From assembly GCA_023663225.1 (NCBI GenBank), contig JAMPHU010000024.1, positions 1-41,107 of the forward strand: a DNA stretch of 41,107 nucleotides, read 5' to 3'. Below the pieces are notes generated by a model, which was given only the letters and a program-made list of their open reading frames with translations, searched no databases and was not told the origin of the DNA. The stretch is from Candidatus Gastranaerophilales bacterium (GTDB taxonomy: Bacteria; Bacillota; Clostridia; Lachnospirales; Lachnospiraceae). A program made the position numbers and the translations under genes. Positions 8,386-21,516 of the stretch are shown here, one piece after another (the stretch's first letter is position 1; each line of letters opens with the position of its first letter).

Positions 8386-9552
8386 ATGGACAAAATACGT
8401 GTTGGAGTGATTGGTGTAGGCAACATGGGGAGTAAGTACGCGCAGTTGATCGCGGACGGCAGCGTGGAGGGAATGGAGCTGGCCGCCCTGACCAGGGTGC
8501 GCGGAGAGTATAGAGAGCGGCTAAAGGCGGCGTTGGATGGCGGGCTGCCGTTGTACGATTCGGCGGATGCGCTGTTTGAGGCGGTAGAGAGCGGGCAGCT
8601 TTCTTTGGATGCGGTGGTGGTGGCAACGCCCCATTACGCCCATGAGGAACAGGTGGTGCGCGCTTTTGAAAACCTCTTGCATGTGTTGTGCGACAAACCC
8701 GCGGGAGTGTACAGCAGACAGGCCAGGCAAATTTCTGAGGCGCTTAAACAGGCAGATGGCGATTTGGTCTATGCCATGGTGTTTAACCAGAGGACGAACC
8801 CACTTTATGGGCGTATGAAAGAAATTGTGGAAAGTGGACGCTATGGGCGCATGAAGCGCGTCAACTGGGTGGTGACAGACTGGTATCGCCCTGATTTTTA
8901 TTATGCTTCCAGCGCGTGGCGGGCGACCTGGGATCAGGATGGAGGAGGCACATTGTTGAACCAGTGTCCACACAATTTGGATCTATTACAGTGGATCTGC
9001 GGCGTTCCGGCCAGAGTGCAGGGTTTTTGTCACGAAGGCAAGTATCATCCCATTCAGGTGGAGGACGATGTGACAGCGTATTTGGAATGGGATAACGGCG
9101 CGACAGGTGTTTTTATAGCTTCCACCGGGGAGGCTGCGGGTGTGAATCGGCTGGAGATTTCTTTGGAAGAGGCGTTGTTGGTCTGCGAGGGCGGAGAACT
9201 TCGCGTGTGCGAGATATCAAAAGAGTTGGGGATGCCGGAAGCAGAATACCGTAGGACGGCTACGGAATCTTTTCGAAAGATAAACGGCGCATGGCACAGA
9301 GAAGACTGTGGCAGAGAGGACGCACCTTATCTGAAAGTGCTGCAGGGTTTTGCGGATGCGATACGCAAAAAAGGAGAGCCTGTGGCATGGGGAGAGGAAG
9401 GCAGATACAGTTTGTATCTGTCCAATGCTATTTATCTCTCATCCTGGCAGCGGAGGATGATTGAGCTGCCAAAACCCGAATCTGCGGAGGAATTGCAGTT
9501 TGAAAAAGCCTTTGAGGAAGGTCTGCGGGAGCGAATTAAACACTATTCCTAA
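8386..9552 (+). CDS. Gfo/Idh/MocA family oxidoreductase
   Basis: A 388-residue NAD(P)-dependent sugar or inositol-type dehydrogenase. The N-terminal Rossmann fold starts with VGVIGVGNMG (residues 6-15). The usual EKP motif appears as DKP (Asp103-Lys104-Pro105), and the C-terminal domain has the conserved His in HNLDLLQW (His196). The family oxidises or reduces a hydroxyl on a sugar, cyclitol or related compound; the substrate here is unknown. ATG 8386 has an AAGGAGGAGT site and lies 19 bases after uppP, so it is probably the last gene of the same operon. A promoter for the next gene follows it directly. Confidence 0.88.
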   Translation: MDKIRVGVIGVGNMGSKYAQLIADGSVEGMELAALTRVRGEYRERLKAALDGGLPLYDSADALFEAVESGQLSLDAVVVATPHYAHEEQVVRAFENLLHVLCDKPAGVYSRQARQISEALKQADGDLVYAMVFNQRTNPLYGRMKEIVESGRYGRMKRVNWVVTDWYRPDFYYASSAWRATWDQDGGGTLLNQCPHNLDLLQWICGVPARVQGFCHEGKYHPIQVEDDVTAYLEWDNGATGVFIASTGEAAGVNRLEISLEEALLVCEGGELRVCEISKELGMPEAEYRRTATESFRKINGAWHREDCGREDAPYLKVLQGFADAIRKKGEPVAWGEEGRYSLYLSNAIYLSSWQRRMIELPKPESAEELQFEKAFEEGLRERIKHYS

Positions 9553-9571
9553 AACTATTCGCAGTTTTGAG

Positions 9572-9600
9572 TTGACATTTGGCGAAAAATAGAATAAACT
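9572..9600 (+). promoter_or_regulatory. Sigma-A-type promoter for the DUF6465 gene
   Basis: A perfect TTGACA -35 (9572-9577), a 17-base spacer and TAAACT -10 (9595-9600) in the 130-base gap before the next gene. This leaves a leader of about 75 bases, in which the 10-mer GCAATGAAAG is repeated in tandem (9648-9667). Confidence 0.7.
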
Positions 9601-9682
9601 AAGCAATATCAAGTAGAAAGCTTGTGAGGAGACAAATTTTATCTATTGCAATGAAAGGCAATGAAAGAAGGGAGAAGTCATC

Positions 9683-10138
9683 ATGGCAGCATCAAAAAAG
9701 AAAACATCCGATGTGACAACAGCGACTAAGGCTGTTGAGGATGCAGAGATTCAGGCAGTACCTTCGACAACCCCGGTTAAGACAGAAGAGAAAGAAGCAG
9801 TAAAGAAGGAAGAAGTAAAGAAAGAGGAAGCAGTTAAAAAGGAGTCTGCCAAGAAGACTCCGGGCAGGAAGCCTGCTGCAAAAAAGGCGACCGCTAAGGC
9901 CGCTCCCGTGCGGAGAGGCAGAGTGGCAAAGGACTCTATCAAGACGGACGTACATGTTCAGTTTAATGGGAAATCCTATTCTGAGGACGATCTGATGAAG
10001 ATCGCCAAGGATGTATGGAAGTTTGACTTAAAGCAGAAGGTCAATGCTTTGACGAGCGTTGAGTTGTATGTGAAGCCGGAGGAGAATGTTGTTTATTATG
10101 TGATGAACAAGGAGTTTACCGGTCATTTTAACATTTAA
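9683..10138 (+). CDS. DUF6465 protein with Lys/Ala-rich histone-like N-terminal half
   Basis: A 151-residue protein in two parts. Residues 1-90 are low complexity: Lys/Glu repeats, then a basic Lys/Ala/Pro segment (TPGRKPAAKKATAKAAP) like those in histone H1-like bacterial proteins. Residues 91-151 form a compact domain (VHVQFNGKSYSEDDLMKIA ... YYVMNKEFTGHFNI) that I recognise as DUF6465, a family of unknown function common in Lachnospiraceae. There is no membrane segment. The basic tail suggests nucleic-acid contact, but that is inference. GGGAG precedes the ATG, and a strong promoter stands alone in front of the gene, suggesting high, independent expression. Confidence 0.8.
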   Translation: MAASKKKTSDVTTATKAVEDAEIQAVPSTTPVKTEEKEAVKKEEVKKEEAVKKESAKKTPGRKPAAKKATAKAAPVRRGRVAKDSIKTDVHVQFNGKSYSEDDLMKIAKDVWKFDLKQKVNALTSVELYVKPEENVVYYVMNKEFTGHFNI

Positions 10139-10309
10139 TCTTGGGTACAGATCTTACTTCAAAGGAATGAATCTGAGAGGTGGGGCATATTTGTGTTGAA
10201 AGGCATGGGTATGTCCTTTTTATGTTTGTATGTAAGTAGATTATCTGAGAATGACAGGGGTCTGGGCTTGCCTACTGTGCGGGCGGCTGCGGATATGCAG
10301 GGAAATATT

Positions 10310-11902
10310 ATGAAACGCAAAATTACGTTTATCAGTTGTCTGATTGTGTTTGTCTTGTTGTTGGCAGGCATCTGGTTTTATCGGGACAATCTGGTTTATA
10401 AGGTGGTGCGTGCGGAGGCAGGGATGTTTGTGACCGCCTCTGATTTTTTGAGGGATCCGGACGGGACGGCTAGTTTTACGGGAGACAGCCCCGTGTTTGA
10501 TATCAAGGAACCGGATGAATACAGTGTTATAGTGAGAACGGGACTGTTCACCTACCACTGTACGCTGATCATTGAGGATACGATTCCGCCGAAGGCGCAA
10601 GCGTCCTCTGTCACGATCCGAATGGGCGAGAGCTGTGAGCCGGATGTGTTTGTGTCAAATATCGAGGACGCAACACAAGTTGCGGTCTCTTATGTGGATG
10701 AGCCGGACTATGACAAAGGCGGCGCACAAAATGTGTCGGTGCGTTTGACAGACAGGGGCGGCAACGAGACGATCGTGGAGGCGGAACTTTTGATTATTCC
10801 GGTGGTGGAGGAAGTGACGCTAGAGGCAGGAACGGGTCCGGTCGGTCTGGATAGCTTTGTTATCTCAGCAGAAGAAGCAAACTTTATCACACCAATAAAT
10901 CTTTTGGACGATACAGTTCCAGGAGACTATGAAATTTATATTAAGGTGGATGGATTGACATATACATCTATTTTGCATATTGTAGATACGGTTCCGCCCG
11001 AAGCGGTCGTTCACGATGTGGAAGGATATGCGCAACTGCCAAGGACTGCGGAGGAGTTTGTCACAGAGGTGTCGGATGTCACAGAGGTGGTGGTTGTATT
11101 TAGAGAAGAACCGGATCTGAACTTGATCGGCACACAGGAGTTGGAACTTCTTTTTACGGATCAAGGGGGAAATGAGGTCATAAAACAGGTTAATCTCACT
11201 TTGTGGGAAGATACGGAGGCGCCTGTGATCCATGGCGCAGCGGATCTGCAGACCTTTGTTGGCGATACGGTTTCGTACAGGAAACAGGTTTCGGTTACCG
11301 ATAACAATCCTGACGGATTAGAACTGACAGTGGACACTACCGGCGTTGATCTGCAAAAAGAAGGTGTTTATCCGATCACATACACAGCGACCGACGCGGC
11401 GGGAAATACCACCAGCGTGACGGTGAATCTCACGGTGTCTGTCAGAACGCATAGTCAAGAGGAAGTGTTTATTTTGGCGGATGCGGTACTGGCGGGAATT
11501 ATTACACCAGAAATGAGTGAGAGAGAAAAGGCGCAGGCCATTTATAATTATATCATCAGTCATGTAGGGTATCTGAGCCATTCGGAAAAAGGAGACTGGG
11601 TGCGGGCTGCCTATGAAGGATTGGCGCAGAGGCAGGGAGATTGTTATGTCTATGCGTGCACGGCAAAGGCCCTGCTGACCAGAGCGGGCATTTCCAATAT
11701 GGATATCGCCAAGATTCCCAGCAGGGTACAGCACTATTGGAATCTGGTGGATATCGGGGAGGGTTGGTATCATTTCGATACGACGCCCAGGACAGATCAT
11801 CCTGTCATTTTTATGTGGACGGATGAGGAATTGATGAATTATTCCGCGGCACATCACAACTCTCACAATTACGATCATACGGCTTATCCGCCGGTGAATT
11901 GA
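10310..11902 (+). CDS. Membrane-anchored transglutaminase-like protein with Ig-like repeats
   Basis: A 530-residue exported protein. An N-terminal membrane segment (MKRKITFISCLIVFVLLLAG) is followed by several beta-rich repeats of about 80-90 residues with recurring signatures (DTIPPKA, DRGGNE, DTVPPEA, DQGGNE, DTEAPVI, DAAGN), typical of bacterial Ig-like/DUF5011 domains. The C-terminal transglutaminase core has Cys445 in GDCYVYACTAKALL, His in VQHYWN and Asp in YHFDTTPRTD, giving an intact Cys-His-Asp triad. It probably acts on wall or surface polymers as a protease or cross-linker. I chose ATG 10310 (AGGGAAAT upstream); longer in-frame starts back to 10193 would place about 39 unrelated residues before the signal anchor. 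It lies 47 bases before the racemase gene. Confidence 0.82.
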   Translation: MKRKITFISCLIVFVLLLAGIWFYRDNLVYKVVRAEAGMFVTASDFLRDPDGTASFTGDSPVFDIKEPDEYSVIVRTGLFTYHCTLIIEDTIPPKAQASSVTIRMGESCEPDVFVSNIEDATQVAVSYVDEPDYDKGGAQNVSVRLTDRGGNETIVEAELLIIPVVEEVTLEAGTGPVGLDSFVISAEEANFITPINLLDDTVPGDYEIYIKVDGLTYTSILHIVDTVPPEAVVHDVEGYAQLPRTAEEFVTEVSDVTEVVVVFREEPDLNLIGTQELELLFTDQGGNEVIKQVNLTLWEDTEAPVIHGAADLQTFVGDTVSYRKQVSVTDNNPDGLELTVDTTGVDLQKEGVYPITYTATDAAGNTTSVTVNLTVSVRTHSQEEVFILADAVLAGIITPEMSEREKAQAIYNYIISHVGYLSHSEKGDWVRAAYEGLAQRQGDCYVYACTAKALLTRAGISNMDIAKIPSRVQHYWNLVDIGEGWYHFDTTPRTDHPVIFMWTDEELMNYSAAHHNSHNYDHTAYPPVN

Positions 11903-11949
11903 GAGGCAGACCAAGCGGATTGTAAAGGGAGACGCAAAAGAGGCAGAGT

Positions 11950-12666
11950 ATGAAAAAATTGGGTGTGATAGGCGGCTTGGGGCCGATGGCGACGGCATAT
12001 TTTTTGCAACTGATCACGCAGATGAGCGATGCAAAGACGGATCAGGAACATATAGAGATTTTACTCCACAGCAAGCCGCAGATTCCTGACCGCACGCGGT
12101 TTATTCTGGGGCAGAGTGCGGAGGATCCCGCCGGACAGATGGCGGAGATTGGGGAGGAACTGGTCGCGCGGGGGGCGGAATTGATCGCTATTCCCTGTAT
12201 TACGGCACATTTTTTTCAGAGACAACTGGAGAGGGCGATCCGCGTTCCGATCGTGGACGCCATTGAGGAGACGGCGGTCTATCTGAGAGAAGAGGGGATC
12301 AGCCAGGCAGGGATACTGGCCACGGACGGGACGGTTCAGAGCGAGCTGTTTCAAAAGGTGTTTCTTCGTCATGGGATACGCTGTAGTTTTCCGGATCAGG
12401 AAGGGCAAAAGCTGGTCATGCATCTCATTTATGAGAGAATCAAGGTGGGAAAGGCTGTGGAAATGCCTTTGTTTGAGCAGGTATCCGGACAGTTGTCTGC
12501 GCAGGGGGCACAGACGGTGCTTTTGGCGTGTACAGAGTTGTCTTTGATCAAAAGAGACCAGACTCTCCAGGCGGGTTTTTTGGACGTCATGGAGGTCTTG
12601 GCGCGAAGTGTGGTTCGTTCCTGCGGCCACTTGAAGGAGGAATATACATGTCTGATCACAGGTTGA
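11950..12666 (+). CDS. Aspartate/glutamate racemase family protein
   Basis: A 238-residue cofactor-independent racemase. The two catalytic cysteines are Cys83 in IPCITAH, where the family usually has CNTAH, and Cys194 in LLACTEL. The N-terminus (GVIGGLGPMAT) matches the aspartate racemase group more than MurI. It would interconvert L- and D-forms of aspartate, glutamate or a related amino acid. Its last 19 bases overlap the next gene, a DltA-like adenylating enzyme. This coupling suggests that its D-amino-acid product feeds that enzyme, which is inference. The ATG at 11950 is preceded by a modest AAGAGGCAGAG site. The Asn-to-Ile change beside the first Cys may shift substrate choice. Confidence 0.85.
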   Translation: MKKLGVIGGLGPMATAYFLQLITQMSDAKTDQEHIEILLHSKPQIPDRTRFILGQSAEDPAGQMAEIGEELVARGAELIAIPCITAHFFQRQLERAIRVPIVDAIEETAVYLREEGISQAGILATDGTVQSELFQKVFLRHGIRCSFPDQEGQKLVMHLIYERIKVGKAVEMPLFEQVSGQLSAQGAQTVLLACTELSLIKRDQTLQAGFLDVMEVLARSVVRSCGHLKEEYTCLITG

Positions 12667-14171
12667 ATGTCCTGAGTTACTTGGATACCACTGTTCAAAG
12701 GATGCCTGGAAAGGTGGCTTTTTCCGATGGAAAGGAGTCGCTTTGCTTTGAGGAGCTTTATCTACAGAGCCGCCGCGTGGGAAGTTATCTGGCAAAGGCA
12801 AAAATTTATAAAAAACCTGTGGTGGTTTTTATGCGTAAGTCGCCCAGAGAGGTTGCGGCATTTTTTGGTGTGATTGCCGGCGGAGATTTCTATGTGCCCA
12901 TCGACGAGGAGATGCCGGCGGGCAGGATTCAATTGATTTTGGATAATGTACAGTCGCCGCTTGTGATCTGCGATGAAAGCACGGCGGAAATGGCGAAGAC
13001 ATTTCAGTTAAATGGCGGAGAGATCGCATTGTATGATCAGCTCCTGGAGACGGGGATCGATGACGAGGGACTGGCGAAGATCCGATTGAACGCCATTGAT
13101 ACGGATCCGATCTATATTGTGTTTACTTCTGGTTCCACGGGAATCCCCAAAGGGGTTGCCGCCTGTCACAGATCGGTCATAGATTATATTGAGGAGCTGT
13201 CCGAAGTGTTGGAATTTGGAGAAGATACGGTGTTTGGCAACCAGGCGCCGCTGTATTTTGACGCCTGCTTAAAGGAACTGTATCCGACGATCAAGTTTGG
13301 CGCGACCACTTATCTCATCCCCAGGAATCTTTTTTCGATTCCGACACAGTTGGTGGAATACTTGAACCGGCACAAGATCAACACGATCTGTTGGGTGGTG
13401 TCGGCGCTCACCATGATAAGCGCGTTTGGCACCTTTGAAACGGTGAAGCCGGAATATCTTCGCACGGTGGCATTCGGCAGCGAGGTGTTTCCGATCAAAC
13501 AGTTTAAGCTTTGGAGAAAGGTTCTGCCCAATGCGGCTTTCACCAATCTGTACGGCCCCACGGAGAGCACCGGAATGTGCTGTTACTACAAGGTGGAGCG
13601 TGAATTTGCGGAGGATGAGGCAATCCCCATCGGACGTCCTTTTTCCAATCGGGAGATTTTGTTGTTGACCGAGGAAGGGCAGAGGGCGGCGGACGGCGAA
13701 GAGGGAGAGATCTGTGTCAGAGGTACTGCTGTAACCTTGGGATATTACAATGATCCGATCCGCACGGGGGAGGCATTTGTGCAGAATCCGTTGAACAAAG
13801 CCTATCCGGAGCTGATCTATCGAACCGGAGATATCGGGCGTTACAATGAAGCGGGGGAGTTGGTATTTGTGTCCCGCAGAGATTACCAGATCAAGCACAT
13901 GGGACATCGCATCGAGCTGGGCGAGATCGAGGTCAATGTGGATATGCTGCCGGGGATCCGCATGGCTGCCTGTATTTATGATACGGAGAGATCCAAGATC
14001 ATATTGTACTATGTGGGAGACCCTTCGGAGAAGGAGCTGGTGTCGGCGCTGCGGTCAAAATTGCCGCGCTATATGCTGCCTAACCGGACGATTCGGCTGG
14101 AGGAGATGCCGTTTACGGCCAATGGCAAGATTGACAGGGTCACTTTAAAGAAGAGATATGAAAGGATGTGA
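12648..14171 (+). CDS. DltA-like amino-acid adenylating enzyme (D-alanine-carrier ligase type)
   Basis: A 507-residue AMP-forming ligase with the adenylation motifs in order: FTSGSTGIPKGV (A3), YFDACLKELYP (A4, with the amino-group-binding Asp), NLYGPTEST (A5), YRTGDIGRY (A7), and the C-terminal catalytic lysine in TANGKID (A10). Size and layout match DltA, which activates D-alanine and loads it on DltC. However, the FCGE segment whose Cys shapes the D-Ala pocket in Bacillus DltA reads FGSE here (Gly277), so the substrate may differ. ATG 12648 has a strong AAGGAGG site inside the racemase gene; the longer reading frame from 12528 is out of register with the family. The carrier protein gene follows four bases later. 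Confidence 0.88.
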   Translation: MSDHRLNVLSYLDTTVQRMPGKVAFSDGKESLCFEELYLQSRRVGSYLAKAKIYKKPVVVFMRKSPREVAAFFGVIAGGDFYVPIDEEMPAGRIQLILDNVQSPLVICDESTAEMAKTFQLNGGEIALYDQLLETGIDDEGLAKIRLNAIDTDPIYIVFTSGSTGIPKGVAACHRSVIDYIEELSEVLEFGEDTVFGNQAPLYFDACLKELYPTIKFGATTYLIPRNLFSIPTQLVEYLNRHKINTICWVVSALTMISAFGTFETVKPEYLRTVAFGSEVFPIKQFKLWRKVLPNAAFTNLYGPTESTGMCCYYKVEREFAEDEAIPIGRPFSNREILLLTEEGQRAADGEEGEICVRGTAVTLGYYNDPIRTGEAFVQNPLNKAYPELIYRTGDIGRYNEAGELVFVSRRDYQIKHMGHRIELGEIEVNVDMLPGIRMAACIYDTERSKIILYYVGDPSEKELVSALRSKLPRYMLPNRTIRLEEMPFTANGKIDRVTLKKRYERM

Positions 14172-14175
14172 GGTT

Positions 14176-14406
14176 ATGGAAGAACTGTTGGAGATTTTAA
14201 AGGATTTGCACCCGGATGTGGATTTTGAGGCGGAAGAACATTTGATCGATGATGAGATTCTGGATTCTTTTGACCTAGTCAGTTTGATCGCGGAGATCAA
14301 CGAGGTGTTTGATGTGGTGATCACGGCCAAGGACATTATTCCCGCCAATTTTAATTCTGCAAAGGCTCTGTATGCGTTGATCCAAGAGCTGGATGATGAG
14401 GTCTGA
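14176..14406 (+). CDS. Acyl carrier protein (DltC-like)
   Basis: A 76-residue acidic four-helix carrier protein. Ser31 in the motif LDSFDLVSL is the predicted 4'-phosphopantetheine attachment site, matching the DSF/DSL pattern of carrier proteins. It would receive the activated amino acid from the preceding DltA-like ligase and deliver it to the membrane acyltransferase encoded next. ATG 14176 is preceded by a GGATGTGAGG site within the end of the ligase gene; the upstream in-frame ATG at 14158 overlaps the ligase and would add six residues. Size is typical for DltC or a stand-alone ACP. Confidence 0.9.
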   Translation: MEELLEILKDLHPDVDFEAEEHLIDDEILDSFDLVSLIAEINEVFDVVITAKDIIPANFNSAKALYALIQELDDEV

Positions 14407-14427
14407 AAGTTCAGGAGGCGTTGAGGT

Positions 14428-16020
14428 ATGCTCTTTACATCATATGAATTTTTGGGTTTTGTAGCGGTGTTGTTTGTCTTGTATTATGTGATACCCAAAA
14501 AGTGTCAGTGGATGTTGTTGCTGGCGTTTAGTTATCTCTTTTATTTTATTGCGGGAGCGGATTACCTGATCTACATTTTGGCGACAACCCTTACTGTCTA
14601 TTATGCCGCTCTCAGAATAGAGAAAAGTGCAAACGATCAGAGCGCCTGGCTGAAGGCGCACAAGAGTGAACTGACCAAGGAAGAGAGGAAGGCTTATAAA
14701 GATTCCAGGCAGAAGATCCGATTCAGGTGGAGCCTTGCCTGTATCCTGATCAACATCGGTATTTTGGCAGTCCTGAAATACACCAATTTTGCAATCTACA
14801 ATGTGAACAGTCTGCTGGGAGCGTTTGGCTGGACTGATCGACTGTCTTTCGTCACCCTGGCGCTTCCCATGGGGATTTCTTTCTATACCTTTCAGGCGGT
14901 GGGTTATCTCATCGATGTCTATAGGGGGACCATCGCCGCGGAGAAAAATCCATTTAAATTTGCGCTGTTTGTATCCTTTTTTCCACAGTTGGTACAGGGG
15001 CCGATCAGCCGCTTTGGAGATCTCGCGGCCTCGCTTTATGCCGAGCATCCCTTTGACGGCGAGACTGTGAGCCGCGGTCTGCAGAGGATTCTCTGGGGTT
15101 ATTTCAAAAAAATGGTTATCGCGGATCGGATCCTTTCGGGAGTCAATGTGATCATTGGAGACACGGATACCTATCAGGGCGCATATGTGTTGGTAGGGAT
15201 GCTGTTTTATGCGTTGGAGCTTTATGCGGATTTCACAGGAGGCATCGATATTACCATCGGTATCGCTGAGACTATGGGGATTGCGATAAAGGAGAACTTT
15301 ACTCTCCCCTACTTTTCCAAAAGTCTCAAGGAATATTGGCGCAGATGGCATATCTCCATGGGCACATGGTTCCGCGATTATATTTTTTATCCAATCTCTG
15401 TCTGCAAACCCATGCAGAAATGGACCCGATTTACGAGGAGTCATTTTGGAGAGGCGATAGGCAAGCGGCTGCCGGTGTACATGGCGTCTTTTGCCGTCTG
15501 GTTTGCCACCGGAATCTGGCATGGAGCCAGTTGGAATTTTGTGGTATGGGGATTGGGCAACTGGGCAGTATTGACAATCTCAGAGATAGCAGAACCCCTC
15601 TATGAGAAATTTCACAGAAGATTTTCCGTCAGGGAAAAGCTGGGATATCGGATTTTTCAAATCGCGCGCACTTTTATATTGGTGTCCTGCCTGAGAACCT
15701 TAGACTGTTATCGTTCCGTGTCGGTCACGTTTCGGATGTTCGGTTCCCTGTTTACGGCGGGTAACTGGAATGTCCTGTGGGACGGATCTTTGTTGGAATT
15801 GGGATTGACTGCGCTTGACTATTGGGTCCTTGCGGCAGGCGTATTGATTCTTGTGACGGTGAGTCTTTTTCAGAGGAGAGGGAGCGTTCGCGGGCAGATC
15901 GCAGGGTTGTGGTATCCGCTGCGGTTTGTGATCTGGTATGGCCTGTTTCTGATCGTACTTTTGATGGGAGCTTACGGTGTCGGGTATGACGCAAGCCAAT
16001 TTATCTATAATCAATTTTAA
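14428..16020 (+). CDS. MBOAT family acyltransferase (AlgI/DltB-like)
   Basis: A 530-residue polytopic membrane O-acyltransferase with about 10-12 hydrophobic segments. The invariant catalytic His lies in FATGIWHGASWNFVVWG, and the preceding conserved loop reads YWRRWHISMGTWFRDYIFYP. Both are closer to AlgI-type proteins (about 480-520 residues) than to classical DltB (about 400). In this context it should take the aminoacyl group from the carrier protein and pass it across or through the membrane to an extracellular acceptor. A GGAGG site precedes ATG 14428, 21 bases after the carrier gene. The acceptor is unknown: teichoic acid, lipid or polysaccharide are all possible. Confidence 0.9.
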   Translation: MLFTSYEFLGFVAVLFVLYYVIPKKCQWMLLLAFSYLFYFIAGADYLIYILATTLTVYYAALRIEKSANDQSAWLKAHKSELTKEERKAYKDSRQKIRFRWSLACILINIGILAVLKYTNFAIYNVNSLLGAFGWTDRLSFVTLALPMGISFYTFQAVGYLIDVYRGTIAAEKNPFKFALFVSFFPQLVQGPISRFGDLAASLYAEHPFDGETVSRGLQRILWGYFKKMVIADRILSGVNVIIGDTDTYQGAYVLVGMLFYALELYADFTGGIDITIGIAETMGIAIKENFTLPYFSKSLKEYWRRWHISMGTWFRDYIFYPISVCKPMQKWTRFTRSHFGEAIGKRLPVYMASFAVWFATGIWHGASWNFVVWGLGNWAVLTISEIAEPLYEKFHRRFSVREKLGYRIFQIARTFILVSCLRTLDCYRSVSVTFRMFGSLFTAGNWNVLWDGSLLELGLTALDYWVLAAGVLILVTVSLFQRRGSVRGQIAGLWYPLRFVIWYGLFLIVLLMGAYGVGYDASQFIYNQF

Positions 16021-16050
16021 TGGTAGGAATGTTTTTTTGAGGGAAAGAAT

Positions 16051-17109
16051 ATGAAGTGGGATAAAAGGCGGAAAGCGACATATATAAAATGGGTGATCTC
16101 TGCGTGGATCGCGTTGACGGGGCTGTTTTTACTGCAAAGATTGCTTGTGCCCAAGTATGTGGACAGTACGGTTGAAGGAGCGCTGATCGCGGAATACTAT
16201 GAAGAAAAGAAAGATTTTGATGTGATCTTTATCGGAGACTGTGAAGTATATGAGAATTTCTCTCCGGCGGTGCTCTGGGAGCAGTACGGCATCAACAGTT
16301 ATATTCGCGGCAGCGCCCAGCAATATATTTGGCAGTCCTATTATTTGTTGGAAGATACTTTGCGGTACGAGACGCCGGATGTGGTGATTTTTAATGTGCT
16401 GGCCCTGCAGTATGATGAGGCGCAGAGAGAGGCGTACAACCGTATGACTTTGGAGGGGATGGAGTGGTCTCTGCCCAAGGTCAAAGCTATTTTGGCTTCC
16501 ATGGGGCCGGAAGAAAACTTTTTGGATTATGTGTTTCCGATTTTGCGGTATCATACCAGATGGAGCGAGCTTGGACAAAGCGATGTGAAATATCTGTTTG
16601 ACACAGAGCAGGTCTCCCACAACGGTTATTATATGAGAGTAGATGTGAAGCCTGCGGAGAATGTGCCGGAGGGCAGGATTCTGGGAGATTACAGTTTTGG
16701 GGAAAACGTGTGGAAGTATCTGGACAAGATGACTGCGCTGTGCGAGGAAAACGGTATTCGACTGATCTTGATCAAAGCGCCCAGCCTGTATCCCTATTGG
16801 TATGAGGAGTGGGAAACCCAGGTGGAGGACTATGCCGCAGAGCATGATCTTTTGTATATTAATTTCTTAGAATTGACGGAGGAGACCGGAATAGATTACA
16901 GTCTGGACACTTATGATGCGGGACTTCACATGAATCTGTCCGGAGCCGAAAAGCTATCCGCCTACTTGGGTCGTTTGCTTGCGGAGGAGATGGGGCTTCA
17001 CGATCGTCGGGGCGAGGAGGTGCTCTGCGAGATATGGGAGAGAAAAATTACCGCATATGAGGAGGAGAAGCAGGAGCAGTATCGGGAGTATGGGATCTTG
17101 CAAGAATGA
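16051..17109 (+). CDS. SGNH/DltD-like protein with Cys in place of the nucleophilic Ser
   Basis: A 352-residue protein with an N-terminal signal anchor (about residues 11-33) and an extracytoplasmic SGNH-hydrolase-like domain. Block I reads FIGDCEVY, so residue 64 is Cys where the catalytic Ser of GDSL/DltD proteins usually sits. The C-terminal Asp-His pair is Asp289/His293 in YDAGLHMNLSGAEKLS. Position and fold suggest the DltD-like partner that completes transfer of the acyl group outside the membrane, acting on the MBOAT product; this is inference from the operon. The ATG at 16051 follows a GAGGGAAAG site 30 bases after the MBOAT gene. The C-terminus is a charged helix. Confidence 0.75.
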   Translation: MKWDKRRKATYIKWVISAWIALTGLFLLQRLLVPKYVDSTVEGALIAEYYEEKKDFDVIFIGDCEVYENFSPAVLWEQYGINSYIRGSAQQYIWQSYYLLEDTLRYETPDVVIFNVLALQYDEAQREAYNRMTLEGMEWSLPKVKAILASMGPEENFLDYVFPILRYHTRWSELGQSDVKYLFDTEQVSHNGYYMRVDVKPAENVPEGRILGDYSFGENVWKYLDKMTALCEENGIRLILIKAPSLYPYWYEEWETQVEDYAAEHDLLYINFLELTEETGIDYSLDTYDAGLHMNLSGAEKLSAYLGRLLAEEMGLHDRRGEEVLCEIWERKITAYEEEKQEQYREYGILQE

Positions 17110-17122
17110 GAGGAGAGAGAGT

Positions 17123-17719
17123 ATGAAAAAATTAATGGTAGTGTTTTTGGCGACAGGTTTGTTGACGGTGGCCGGCTGTGGAGACAGTGAGAAGGTTCTG
17201 GAGGGAGAGGTACAGAATATGGTGTCAAACGGAAGAGAAAGCGGGGAGGCGGAAACGCCGCAGACTTCTGGACAGACTTCAGGGCAGGGGGATTTGGAGG
17301 AAGCACAGATTGTACAAAAGGGATATTTGTTTGAAACGGAGGGTATTGTGATTGCGGTGGATGAGGATGCTGCGCCTCTGATCGAGCAGTTGGGAGAGCC
17401 GGTCTCCTATTTTGAGGCGGCCAGTTGCGCCTTTGAAGGCTTGGATAAAATGTACACTTACAGCAGTTTTGAGATAGACACCTACCCGATGGATGACAAA
17501 GACTATATTTCTTCTGTCATTCTAAAGGACGATTGCGTATCCACGGCGGAGGGCGTCTATATAGGAAATTCGATGGAGGCGCTGACGCAGGCTTACGGTA
17601 GTGAATACGCGGAAGAAGACGGGATGATTGTGTACGAAAAGGACGGGATGAAATTATGTTTTATCTTGCAGAATGGGGAAATTGTTTCTATAGAATACCG
17701 TTCCGGTGTGTTGGAGTGA
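17123..17719 (+). CDS. Lipoprotein of unknown function at the end of the dlt-like operon
   Basis: A 198-residue exported lipoprotein. The signal peptide ends in a lipobox LTVAGC, so the mature protein would be lipid-anchored outside the membrane. A Ser/Gly/Glu/Gln-rich linker (about residues 25-65) is followed by a compact domain with two similar halves in which acidic residues and Tyr are frequent. I do not recognise this domain with certainty. ATG 17123 has GAGAGGAGAGA directly upstream and lies 13 bases after the SGNH gene, so it belongs to the same transcript; the long upstream extension of the reading frame overlaps that gene and is not used. It may assist the acylation system. Confidence 0.75.
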   Translation: MKKLMVVFLATGLLTVAGCGDSEKVLEGEVQNMVSNGRESGEAETPQTSGQTSGQGDLEEAQIVQKGYLFETEGIVIAVDEDAAPLIEQLGEPVSYFEAASCAFEGLDKMYTYSSFEIDTYPMDDKDYISSVILKDDCVSTAEGVYIGNSMEALTQAYGSEYAEEDGMIVYEKDGMKLCFILQNGEIVSIEYRSGVLE

Positions 17720-17770
17720 CAGGTGGCGGTTTCTTTATATTTATTTTAGAAATATTTTTTATGAAAAGAG

Positions 17771-17799
17771 TTGACAACAAATGGGCATAGTGATATTTT
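17771..17799 (+). promoter_or_regulatory. Sigma-A-type promoter for the hrcA operon
   Basis: TTGACA (17771-17776), a 17-base spacer, TATTTT (17794-17799). The predicted transcription start falls near 17806, just ahead of the CIRCE repeat, so repressor bound there would block transcription. Confidence 0.75.
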
Positions 17800-17814
17800 A
17801 GGTTATGAAAGATG

Positions 17815-17841
17815 TTAGCACTCCATTAAGGCGAGTGCTAA
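17815..17841 (+). promoter_or_regulatory. CIRCE operator (HrcA binding site)
   Basis: Perfect consensus inverted repeat TTAGCACTC (17815-17823), nine bases, GAGTGCTAA (17833-17841). This is the classical HrcA operator of class I heat-shock genes. It ends 19 bases before the hrcA start, so the operon is autoregulated. Confidence 0.97.
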
Positions 17842-17860
17842 TAACTGAAGAGGTGACAGG

Positions 17861-18910
17861 ATGGAGCTGGATGAGAGAAAGACCAAAATTCTACAGGCTG
17901 TTATCCGCAATTATCTGGAGACAGGCGAGCCGGTGGGAAGTCGGACGATTTCCAAGTATACGGATTTGAACCTGAGCTCTGCCACCATCCGAAATGAGAT
18001 GGCGGATCTGGAGGAGATGGGGTATATCTTACAGCCTCACACTTCCGCAGGTCGTATTCCTTCCGACAAGGGTTATCGCTTCTATGTAGATGTGATGATG
18101 GAGGCCAAGGAGCGAGAAGTCATCGAGATGAAGGATATGCTTTTAGAGCGGCAGGATAAGCTGGAGACCATGCTCAAGCAGATCGCCCGGGTGCTGGCGC
18201 AGAATACCCAGTACGCCGCTATGATCTCCGCACCTCAAACGCACCGCAACAAGGTGAAATTTATTCAACTGTCCCGTGTGGATAAGGGACAGATATTGGC
18301 AGTCATCGTGGGAGAGGGCAATGTGATCAAGAACAATATTCTCACGGTGGCGGAAGAACTTTCCGACGAGACTCTGCTCAAGCTGAATATGTTGTTGAAT
18401 ACGCATTTAAATGGCTTGTCTATGGAGGAGATCAATCTGGGACTGATCTCGGCTATGAAGCAGCAGGCGGGCATCCACAGTGGACTGATCAGTTCCGTGA
18501 TCGACGCGGTGGCGGAGGCCATCAAGGCGGATGAGGATCTGGAGATCTACACCAGCGGCGCTAACAATATCTTTCGCTATCCGGAGTTGGCGGATCAGGA
18601 GCGGGCAAGCGAACTGATCAACACCTTTGAGGAGAAAAAACTTCTGACGGGGTTGATACAGGATGATACCGCAGAAAGCGGCACGGATATTCAGGTATAT
18701 ATCGGAGGAGAGGCGCCGGTACAGGGAATGAAGGACTGTAGCGTTGTCACGGCCACTTATGAATTAAGCGAAGGCATGAAGGGAACGATAGGAATTATTG
18801 GTCCCAAGCGTATGGATTACGATAAGGTTGTGGGGGCATTGAAGACCTTGCGCAGTCAACTGGATGAACTGTATAAGGATGGCGCCGGAGACGAGAAAGG
18901 AAATGATTAG
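17861..18910 (+). CDS. hrcA: Heat-inducible transcription repressor HrcA
   Basis: A 349-residue repressor of class I heat-shock genes. The N-terminal winged helix (RKTKILQAVIRNYLETGEPVG, then LSSATIRNEMADLEEMGYI) and the HTSAGRIPSDKGYR motif around residues 60-75 are diagnostic; the middle is a GAF-like dimerisation domain. HrcA binds CIRCE, needs chaperonin for full activity, and would repress its own operon here. ATG 17861 follows a GAAGAGGTGACAGG site. Length fits the family (about 340). grpE begins two bases after its stop. Confidence 0.97.
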   Translation: MELDERKTKILQAVIRNYLETGEPVGSRTISKYTDLNLSSATIRNEMADLEEMGYILQPHTSAGRIPSDKGYRFYVDVMMEAKEREVIEMKDMLLERQDKLETMLKQIARVLAQNTQYAAMISAPQTHRNKVKFIQLSRVDKGQILAVIVGEGNVIKNNILTVAEELSDETLLKLNMLLNTHLNGLSMEEINLGLISAMKQQAGIHSGLISSVIDAVAEAIKADEDLEIYTSGANNIFRYPELADQERASELINTFEEKKLLTGLIQDDTAESGTDIQVYIGGEAPVQGMKDCSVVTATYELSEGMKGTIGIIGPKRMDYDKVVGALKTLRSQLDELYKDGAGDEKGND

Positions 18911-18912
18911 TT

Positions 18913-19599
18913 ATGGCAGAGCAGGAAAAGGAAAATCTGGAAGAAGAGATCGAGAAAAAGGAAATGGCTGAAGAGGAGCCTGGAGAGGCGGCAGAAGAAC
19001 TTTCTGAGGGGGAAGCTTCTGATAGTGACAGCTTGGAAGGCGAGGCGGAGGGCGAGCCGGAGGCCGGAGAGGAAGAAGCCGGTTCCGGAGAGACGCAGGG
19101 CGGCAAGAGCTGGTCTGAGAGGAAGGCGGCCAAGAAACAGGCAAAGCAGGATAAAAAGGCGGACGCCTACAAGGAAAAGATCGAACAGTTGGAGGATCGG
19201 GTGAAACGCCAGATGGCGGAGTTCGAGAATTTCCGAAAGAGATCTGACAGAGAGAAGCAGGCCATGTTTGAAACAGGCGCAAAAAGTGTGCTGGAGAAGA
19301 TCCTTCCGGTGGTAGACAATTTTGAGCGCGGTCTGCAGACCGTTCCCGAAGAACAGATGGAAGATCCCTTTGTGGACGGCATGAACCGCATCTACAAGCA
19401 GCTTTTGACTGAGTTGGAGAATCTGGGTGTAGCGCCCATCGAAGCGGTGGGAAAAGAGTTTGATCCCAATCTGCACAACGCGGTCATGCAAGTGGAGAGC
19501 GAAGAGTACGAGTCAGGCGTTATTGCTCAGGAGCTGCAAAAAGGATATACCTATCGAGACAGCGTGCTTCGGCACAGTATGGTGGCAGTAGTAGAATAA
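18913..19599 (+). CDS. grpE: Nucleotide exchange factor GrpE
   Basis: A 228-residue DnaK co-chaperone that releases ADP from DnaK. A long acidic, Glu/Ser/Gly-rich N-terminus (about residues 1-60) precedes the coiled-coil dimer region (EKIEQLEDRVKRQMAEFENF) and the compact C-terminal beta domain, which contains GKEFDPNLHNAVM and ends SVLRHSMVAVVE. The acidic extension is longer than in E. coli GrpE but common in clostridia. ATG 18913 sits two bases after the hrcA stop and its ribosome binding site (GAAAGGAAATG) lies inside hrcA, so translation is coupled. Confidence 0.96.
   Translation: MAEQEKENLEEEIEKKEMAEEEPGEAAEELSEGEASDSDSLEGEAEGEPEAGEEEAGSGETQGGKSWSERKAAKKQAKQDKKADAYKEKIEQLEDRVKRQMAEFENFRKRSDREKQAMFETGAKSVLEKILPVVDNFERGLQTVPEEQMEDPFVDGMNRIYKQLLTELENLGVAPIEAVGKEFDPNLHNAVMQVESEEYESGVIAQELQKGYTYRDSVLRHSMVAVVE

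Positions 19600-21516
<1,917 letters not shown>

Follow-up and report, generated by a model that had tools for sequence, protein, structure and literature searches.

A Dlt-like operon with its own racemase in Lachnospiraceae, a candidate system for surface D-aspartylation

The Dlt pathway is the textbook route by which positive charge is added to Gram-positive surfaces in the form of D-alanine. Here we describe a Dlt-like operon in the window, a stretch of 41,107 nucleotides (forward strand of contig JAMPHU010000024.1, assembly GCA_023663225.1) from a bacterium of the family Lachnospiraceae. The operon encodes an amino acid racemase, an adenylating ligase, a small carrier protein, a membrane-bound O-acyltransferase (MBOAT), an SGNH-like protein and a lipoprotein. 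Our reading, of moderate confidence, is a Dlt-like system for aminoacylation of the surface which produces the D-amino acid itself, most probably D-aspartate. The operon has its own aspartate-type racemase and the substrate pocket of the ligase is changed, so that D-aspartate rather than D-alanine would probably be placed on the surface. A first-pass annotation of this DNA had described six tightly packed genes, and all six were found open, close-packed and on a single strand where it had placed them, including the overlap of 19 bases between racemase and ligase (12648-12666). Its proposal of a D-amino acid, perhaps not alanine, which is loaded on a carrier and moved to an outside acceptor fits the comparative data and can be narrowed to an acidic amino acid, D-aspartate being the likeliest; the substrate, its enantiomer, every transfer step and the acceptor are what we infer from sequence comparison.

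The linkage of the racemase to the ligase was analyzed in a survey of 299 genomes of the host family, using full-length relatives of the ligase. Among the matches listed, a clade with 58-100% ligase identity in at least 32 genomes, plus two genomes with partial genes, is set apart from the remaining ligases with 50% or less. Neighbourhoods were taken for a part of the listed ligases; among 81 of these, 26 of the 34 ligases with the Asp-Ala-Lys pocket described below had a same-strand racemase no more than 9 kb away, compared with 0 of 47 others. A further 80 loci were the top-ranking ones among 567 from a genome scan, which biases this part of the sample to close relatives. After pooling and counting identical ligases once, 106 clade ligases were obtained, 85 of them with a racemase in the available stretch. 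At loci with adequate flanks (3 kb or more upstream and 6.5 kb or more downstream of the ligase) the racemase was found near 59 of 70 clade ligases and near 0 of 40 other Dlt-like ligases; the corresponding Fisher p of 3e-20 is overstated because the relatives are not independent. The linkage exceeds chance. In 67 loci the racemase is directly adjacent to the ligase (less than 300 bp, same strand), and in 65 of them it lies upstream. Some operons show the alternative order ligase-carrier-MBOAT-SGNH-AsnB-transglutaminase-racemase-lipoprotein, so the link survives rearrangement of the genes. Culturable species that carry the operon include Pseudobutyrivibrio xylanivorans and P. ruminis. The asparagine-synthase-like (AsnB) gene of the alternative arrangement accompanies 16 of the 70 clade ligases and none of the 40 others, and the proteins of two members reached 444 and 452 bits with TIGR01536 (cut-off 267). 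Starting from the racemase, 33 places with E <1e-56 were found including the own genome; by our own count 31 of these are in genomes with a clade ligase, a number that takes in G245, the ligase of which has 48% identity and the same pocket. The distance matrices of racemase and ligase are correlated (82 pairs, Mantel r 0.64; 999 permutations gave at most 0.20), which could also be explained by shared host descent alone.

The ligase differs from DltA in overall score and in the residues of its pocket. With the DltA model TIGR01734 it reached 277.3 bits, half of the cut-off of 559.85, and it passed the cut-off of the general adenylation-domain model TIGR01733 narrowly. The pocket was mapped using three DltA-like genes of the same phylum, two above the TIGR01734 cut-off and one with 545 bits, and reads D A K C [IV] F G S L G M K. 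The DltA-like genes contain D-L-M/L at the positions equivalent to GrsA 235/236/239 and Cys at 302, whereas the window ligase contains D-A-K and Gly (Ala206, Lys209 and Gly277 in its own numbering). According to PMC8972799, Leu, Met and Cys268 of DltA line the cavity for the methyl group of D-alanine; position 302 is taken to be equivalent to Cys268 of Bacillus cereus DltA, which selects D over L. All three cavity residues are replaced in the window ligase. Asp-Ala-Lys at 235/236/239 was found in 113 of 114 relatives with at least 57% identity, which were picked by identity alone, and the remaining one was unreadable. By the codes of non-ribosomal peptide synthetases (NRPS), a Lys at GrsA 239 presumably indicates a substrate with an acidic side chain, and the Lys209 pocket is expected to suit such a side chain. 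In a quick ligase tree, in which 46 of 126 inner branches have less than 80% support, the other ligases cluster apart save one long branch, and L073 stands outside on a long branch. L069, which has Val302 and lacks a racemase, falls on the branch of the other ligases and for this reason may not be a true clade member.

The best match of the racemase in the PDB is the aspartate racemase 1jfl (E 2.1e-49). Both catalytic cysteines, Cys83 and Cys194, are conserved in 85 of 85 relatives, as is Arg48; Lys165 was found in 84, the remaining one being unreadable. Arg48 and Lys165 are the residues that we take to bind the side-chain carboxylate in the Pyrococcus enzyme; we looked for a confirming paper and did not find one. 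The host genome contains two Alr matches above the cut-off and one MurI, so D-alanine and D-glutamate are already supplied. Taken together, the type of the racemase, the asparagine-synthase-like gene and the presence of a separate Alr and MurI point to aspartate as the likely substrate.

Several observations weigh against D-aspartate or against a strict coupling of racemase and ligase. At 11 of the 70 clade loci no racemase is located nearby. Each of the 21 clade loci with no racemase in the available stretch was traced to its whole genome, and 16 of these genomes contain a homologue elsewhere (including G002 and G087), with any racemase homologue in 88 of 299 family genomes as the baseline; two of the 16 are fragmentary (G447 with a stop, G460 in two pieces). 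Of eight of these loci, five with a homologue elsewhere and three with none, several are on short contigs, so that "elsewhere" may mean adjoining, on the missing stretch. No racemase homologue at E 1e-10 was found in G065, G219, G461, G462 and G463, five of the 21 genomes. The absence from G461, G462 and G463, the ligases of which keep the normal pocket, is unsure because these are metagenome-assembled genomes, one of 1.3 Mb. Close relatives of the racemase also occur in G249 and G272, two genomes without a clade ligase. Lys239 is shared by 30 of 50 ligases with less than 57% identity, outside the clade and without racemase, and the presumed rule that ties it to acidic side chains comes from NRPS codes. 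The window racemase also passes the cut-off of NF052483, the model for the cysteate racemase CuyB (204.5 bits, cut-off 190). Finally, 79 of 85 relatives have Ile, Val, Met or Phe as residue 84, directly behind the first catalytic Cys, where four racemases of the PDB alignment have Asn.

In the ligases of G065 and G219, Gly, Ser and Met of the pocket are replaced by Val302, Gly303 and Val331. The G065 ligase recurs as L206 in G454, which is likewise without a racemase homologue, and L051 contains Val302 and Val331 and yet has kept an adjacent racemase. We considered whether loss of the racemase is coupled to a changed pocket and mostly rejected this, since the pocket is normal at 19 of the 21 loci without a racemase; the change in two of the five racemase-free genomes is a lead without evidential weight.

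An alternative that we regard as rather unlikely is a ligase that uses L-aspartate, or both enantiomers alike, beside a racemase with another purpose, for example a separate D-aspartate pool. This would agree with the five genomes that contain the ligase and no detectable racemase, three of them with a normal pocket, and with the Gly of the window ligase at the position of the presumed D/L-selecting Cys of DltA. The tight linkage of both genes and the homologues elsewhere in 16 of the 21 unlinked genomes argue against it. The only two lineages with Val302/Gly303/Val331 belong to the five racemase-free genomes, a hint of a D/L switch that is weak, as it concerns two of five and L051 combines Val302 with an adjacent racemase. 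A similarly improbable variant keeps the same machinery with D-glutamate as the amino acid. The racemase family includes enzymes for both aspartate and glutamate, and Lys at GrsA 239 is a residue of glutamate-activating NRPS domains; however, a second racemase would be needless beside MurI, the top PDB matches of the racemase are aspartate racemases, and 16 of the 70 loci include a gene of the asparagine-synthase type.

We consider it very unlikely that the amino acid is cysteate, the sulfonate analogue of aspartate, with CuyB as the racemase. A Lys pocket would fit a sulfonate, and the NF052483 cut-off is passed by 8 of 10 racemase relatives in addition to the window protein, but we suspect that this model is broad. 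Eight of 10 relatives reach a higher score with the general asp_race model, two of them by less than 1 bit, the window protein showing the opposite (204.5 bits with NF052483 and 196.5 with asp_race). In a cysteate pathway the asparagine-synthase-like gene would be without an obvious role. An ordinary D-alanine dlt operon with the racemase as a chance neighbour is also very unlikely: it would account for the overall architecture and for a genome without any other ligase near the DltA score, and is contradicted by the replaced D-alanine cavity, the score at half of the DltA cut-off, the racemase kept in 59 of 70 loci and a draft genome without an LtaS-family match. The first-pass annotation had named findings that would speak against its own reading, namely a standard alanine racemase in the genome, the lack of a separate dlt operon, homologous operons that usually lack the racemase and a ligase that accepts D-alanine alone; the last would be at odds with the replaced cavity. 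The first two hold, with two alanine racemase matches above the cut-off and the next TIGR01734 matches in the genome at only 69 and 63 bits, and the third fails, as linkage is the usual state.

The Ser of the carrier protein is kept in 89 of 90 relatives. With the DltB model TIGR04091 the MBOAT reached 147.8 bits, well below the cut-off of 375, and it matches the DltB chains 8jem and 6bug of the PDB (440 and 425 amino acids). Its His365 is conserved in 92 of 93 MBOATs, with one gap, and the Tyr of a C-terminal FxYxxF motif in 90 of 93, the other three being gaps; conserved His and FxYxxF are the features expected of the MBOAT in an MBOAT-SGNH pair. PMC12148441 describes FxYxxF as an acyl shuttle; in the Dlt pathway DltX carries it, and other systems have it as part of the MBOAT itself. 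The length of the protein beyond that of DltB had been recognized before; what had been missed is that it is due to the motif fused at the end of the MBOAT. Four further MBOAT genes are present in the same genome (contigs C91, C34, C36 and C16), each with a higher PF03062 score than the one in the window. As a prediction from comparison, a role like that of Dlt with an acidic D-amino acid made by the system itself is well supported. We group the system with MBOAT-SGNH carrier-dependent acylation and not with the DltA and DltB equivalogs, the cut-offs of which its ligase and MBOAT do not reach.

The predicted exported protein in the DltD position had been called SGNH-like, a tentative assignment based on weak Pfam matches and a motif alignment. 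Of 34 aligned relatives, 32 show a GDSL match at E up to 0.1, the window protein being under the cut-off. A PDB profile search with the 34 relatives yielded an anti-sigma factor (E 0.0024), a further match at 0.37 and a GDSL-like lipase at 0.86, none of which was trusted. What had escaped notice is the residue at the nucleophile position: GDC replaces GDS, and instead of the catalytic Ser a Cys is present in 87 of 88 clade members; only the additional, second SGNH-like protein of L162 deviates. The Cys goes together with a gene for a transglutaminase-like protein. In the family set, with two proteins unreadable, Cys was found in 29 of 29 readable SGNH-like proteins from clusters with this gene, whereas clusters without it contain Ser in 28 of 29 and Cys in one. 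Three Cys-type proteins (L092, L095 and L110) accompany other types of ligase without racemase, and hence donor side and acceptor side look exchangeable. We suggest that the aminoacyl group would be bound to the Cys in a thioester linkage, and that an amine would then be the favoured type of acceptor.

The transglutaminase-like gene lies directly upstream of the racemase and had been overlooked when the set was described as six genes. It is present in 64 of 70 clade loci and in 3 of 40 other Dlt-like loci, and the Cys/His/Asp triad is conserved in 101 of 102 aligned proteins, with one gap. An N-terminal hydrophobic stretch is by eye a membrane anchor. The lipoprotein gene was found in 56 of 70 clade loci; a Pfam scan of the protein gave no match. 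In this otherwise variable protein Cys102 and Cys19 are both invariant in 73 of 73 relatives. No PF00884 (LtaS family) match was detected in the host draft genome, which is 94.5% complete, so type-I lipoteichoic acid is unlikely as the acceptor, and the surface acceptor is probably a different one.

From these components we propose the following sequence of steps. The racemase would convert L-aspartate to D-aspartate, and the ligase would adenylate D-aspartate, with the side-chain carboxylate held by Lys209, and load it on the carrier protein as a thioester. The aspartyl group would then be transferred, outside the membrane, to the Tyr of the FIYNQF motif of the MBOAT. The SGNH-like protein would accept it on Cys64, where a Ser is usual, and hand it to the surface acceptor, and the transglutaminase-like protein and the lipoprotein may work on the acceptor side.

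The racemase link looks like one case of a broader rule, in which groups of Dlt-like ligases in the host family are paired with different amino-acid enzymes. Ligases with an Asp-Val-Lys pocket have a decarboxylase dependent on pyridoxal phosphate (PLP) nearby in 20 of 27 cases, and this protein cluster is present at 0 of 54 other ligases; a looser search gave one decarboxylase match among the 70 clade loci, at L061, the ligase of which has Val302. An example is the LysA-like decarboxylase at L101:5929-7143, which in L101 and others is located between ligase and carrier. Five ligases with Asp-Ala and without Lys239, four of them with an Arg at GrsA 278, form a third group. Three of the five are accompanied by a gene resembling glutamate 2,3-aminomutase (compared with 0 of 76 others; TIGR04368 605 bits, under the cut-off of 650), which suggests beta-glutamate as the substrate. 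In L072 (12036-13268), L074 and L098 the aminomutase-like gene adjoins the SGNH gene. A fourth group (L076, L084, L090, L092, L094, L113 and L114) contains Ser-Met at GrsA 235/236, and its substrate may not be an alpha-amino acid because the Asp that usually binds the amino group is replaced. L168 (7350-12246) and L170 contain carrier, ligase and racemase but no MBOAT set; in L168 these three adjoin a DUF4910 protein and a protein of the Antibiotic_NAT family; a donor module of this type may feed a soluble acyltransferase. The exosortase-A-associated models TIGR03098, TIGR03099 and TIGR03108, which we take to describe a ligase, a decarboxylase and an amidotransferase of one set, were matched by the ligase, the decarboxylase of group B and the AsnB-like proteins, respectively, all below the cut-offs.

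A wider proposal, which goes beyond the data for the window and which we put forward only tentatively, is a thioester-based surface D-aspartylation in which the exchange of Ser for Cys in the DltD-like protein gives an amide and not an ester, in conjunction with the transglutaminase-like protein. The system would then be one branch of Clostridia Dlt-like systems that possess their own racemase, PLP decarboxylase or glutamate 2,3-aminomutase and would decorate surfaces with D-aspartate, a decarboxylase product or beta-glutamate in place of D-alanine.

Compared with dltXABCD, the adenylating ligase, the small carrier, the MBOAT with conserved His, the FxYxxF motif and the SGNH-like partner are alike. 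The window system differs in its own racemase, in the pocket Ala/Lys/Gly instead of Leu/Met/Cys, in the shuttle motif that is fused to the MBOAT and not supplied by DltX, in the Cys for Ser of the SGNH-like protein, in the additional transglutaminase-like protein and lipoprotein, and in the draft genome without an LtaS-family match. The C-terminal fusion of FxYxxF to the MBOAT is shared with the PatA/PatB-type MBOAT-SGNH pairs for O-acetylation, as described in PMC12148441; those pairs use acetyl-CoA and an SGNH enzyme with Ser, in contrast to ligase and carrier protein here. An aspartate racemase and a D-aspartate-activating enzyme in one operon are also known from Lactococcus lactis, where according to PMC4155827 the D-Asp ligase gene aslA for the peptidoglycan cross-bridge shares an operon with racD, and AsnH subsequently amidates D-aspartate. 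AslA is an ATP-grasp enzyme that acts via aspartyl phosphate, unlike the predicted adenylate, thioester carrier and export relay of the window system. A search of the open-licence PMC literature turned up no operon of this kind, which does not by itself show its absence from print.

Features of the aminoacylation locus, with positions in the window
Feature	Position	Strand	Evidence
Transglutaminase-like gene with Ig-like domain	about 10310..11902	+	PF01841 39.5 bits, PF16403 27.3 bits
Amino acid racemase, aspartate-type, PLP-independent	11950..12666	+	PF01177 118 bits (cut-off 31), TIGR00035 196.5 (cut-off 93)
Putative amino acid--carrier protein ligase, adenylation enzyme, DltA-like, altered pocket	12648..14171	+	TIGR01733 318.2 (cut-off 317.4)
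Ligase codons Asp205-Lys209, equivalent to GrsA 235-239	13260..13274	+	Lys209 at the Met or Leu position of DltA
Carrier protein, DltC-like, Ser in DSF motif	14176..14406	+	PF00550 22.3 bits (cut-off 20.8)
MBOAT, DltB/AlgI-like, 530 amino acids	14428..16020	+	PF03062 52.3 (cut-off 27)
C-terminal shuttle motif FIYNQF of the MBOAT	codons 16000-16017	+	FxYxxF type
SGNH-like protein in DltD position	16051..17109	+	PF13472 17.4 bits, under cut-off 32.9; N-terminal anchor read by eye
Cys64 of the SGNH-like protein, position of the nucleophile Ser	codon 16240-16242	+	motif alignment
Lipoprotein, domain without Pfam match	17123..17719	+	lipobox Cys19 read by eye

The genes from racemase through lipoprotein are spaced by -19, 4, 21, 30 and 13 bases, and 47 bases separate the end of the transglutaminase-like gene from the racemase start. 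For the transglutaminase-like open reading frame (ORF) the ORF list gives a GTG start at 10193; in our own reading the ATG at 10310 is likelier. Downstream of the lipoprotein follow hrcA, grpE and dnaK genes, read by eye and taken as a different unit. An inverted repeat (TTAGCACTC/GAGTGCTAA) resembling the controlling inverted repeat of chaperone expression (CIRCE), also read by eye, is located ahead of the hrcA-like gene at about 17813-17840. An Rfam scan of 9000-20000 gave no match. Promoter and terminator scans yielded 17 sites (10.5 expected) and 19 sites (6.9 expected), respectively, and neither was used.

If surface D-aspartylation is the true function of this operon, predictions of surface chemistry would change for many Lachnospiraceae of gut and rumen and for their relatives, and annotation of such genes as D-alanylation would mislead. 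Since different ligase groups have genes for different amino-acid-making enzymes in physical linkage, they provide a test set for the substrate choice of adenylation enzymes. If the Cys of the SGNH-like protein does carry the acyl group, this would be a mechanistic novelty.

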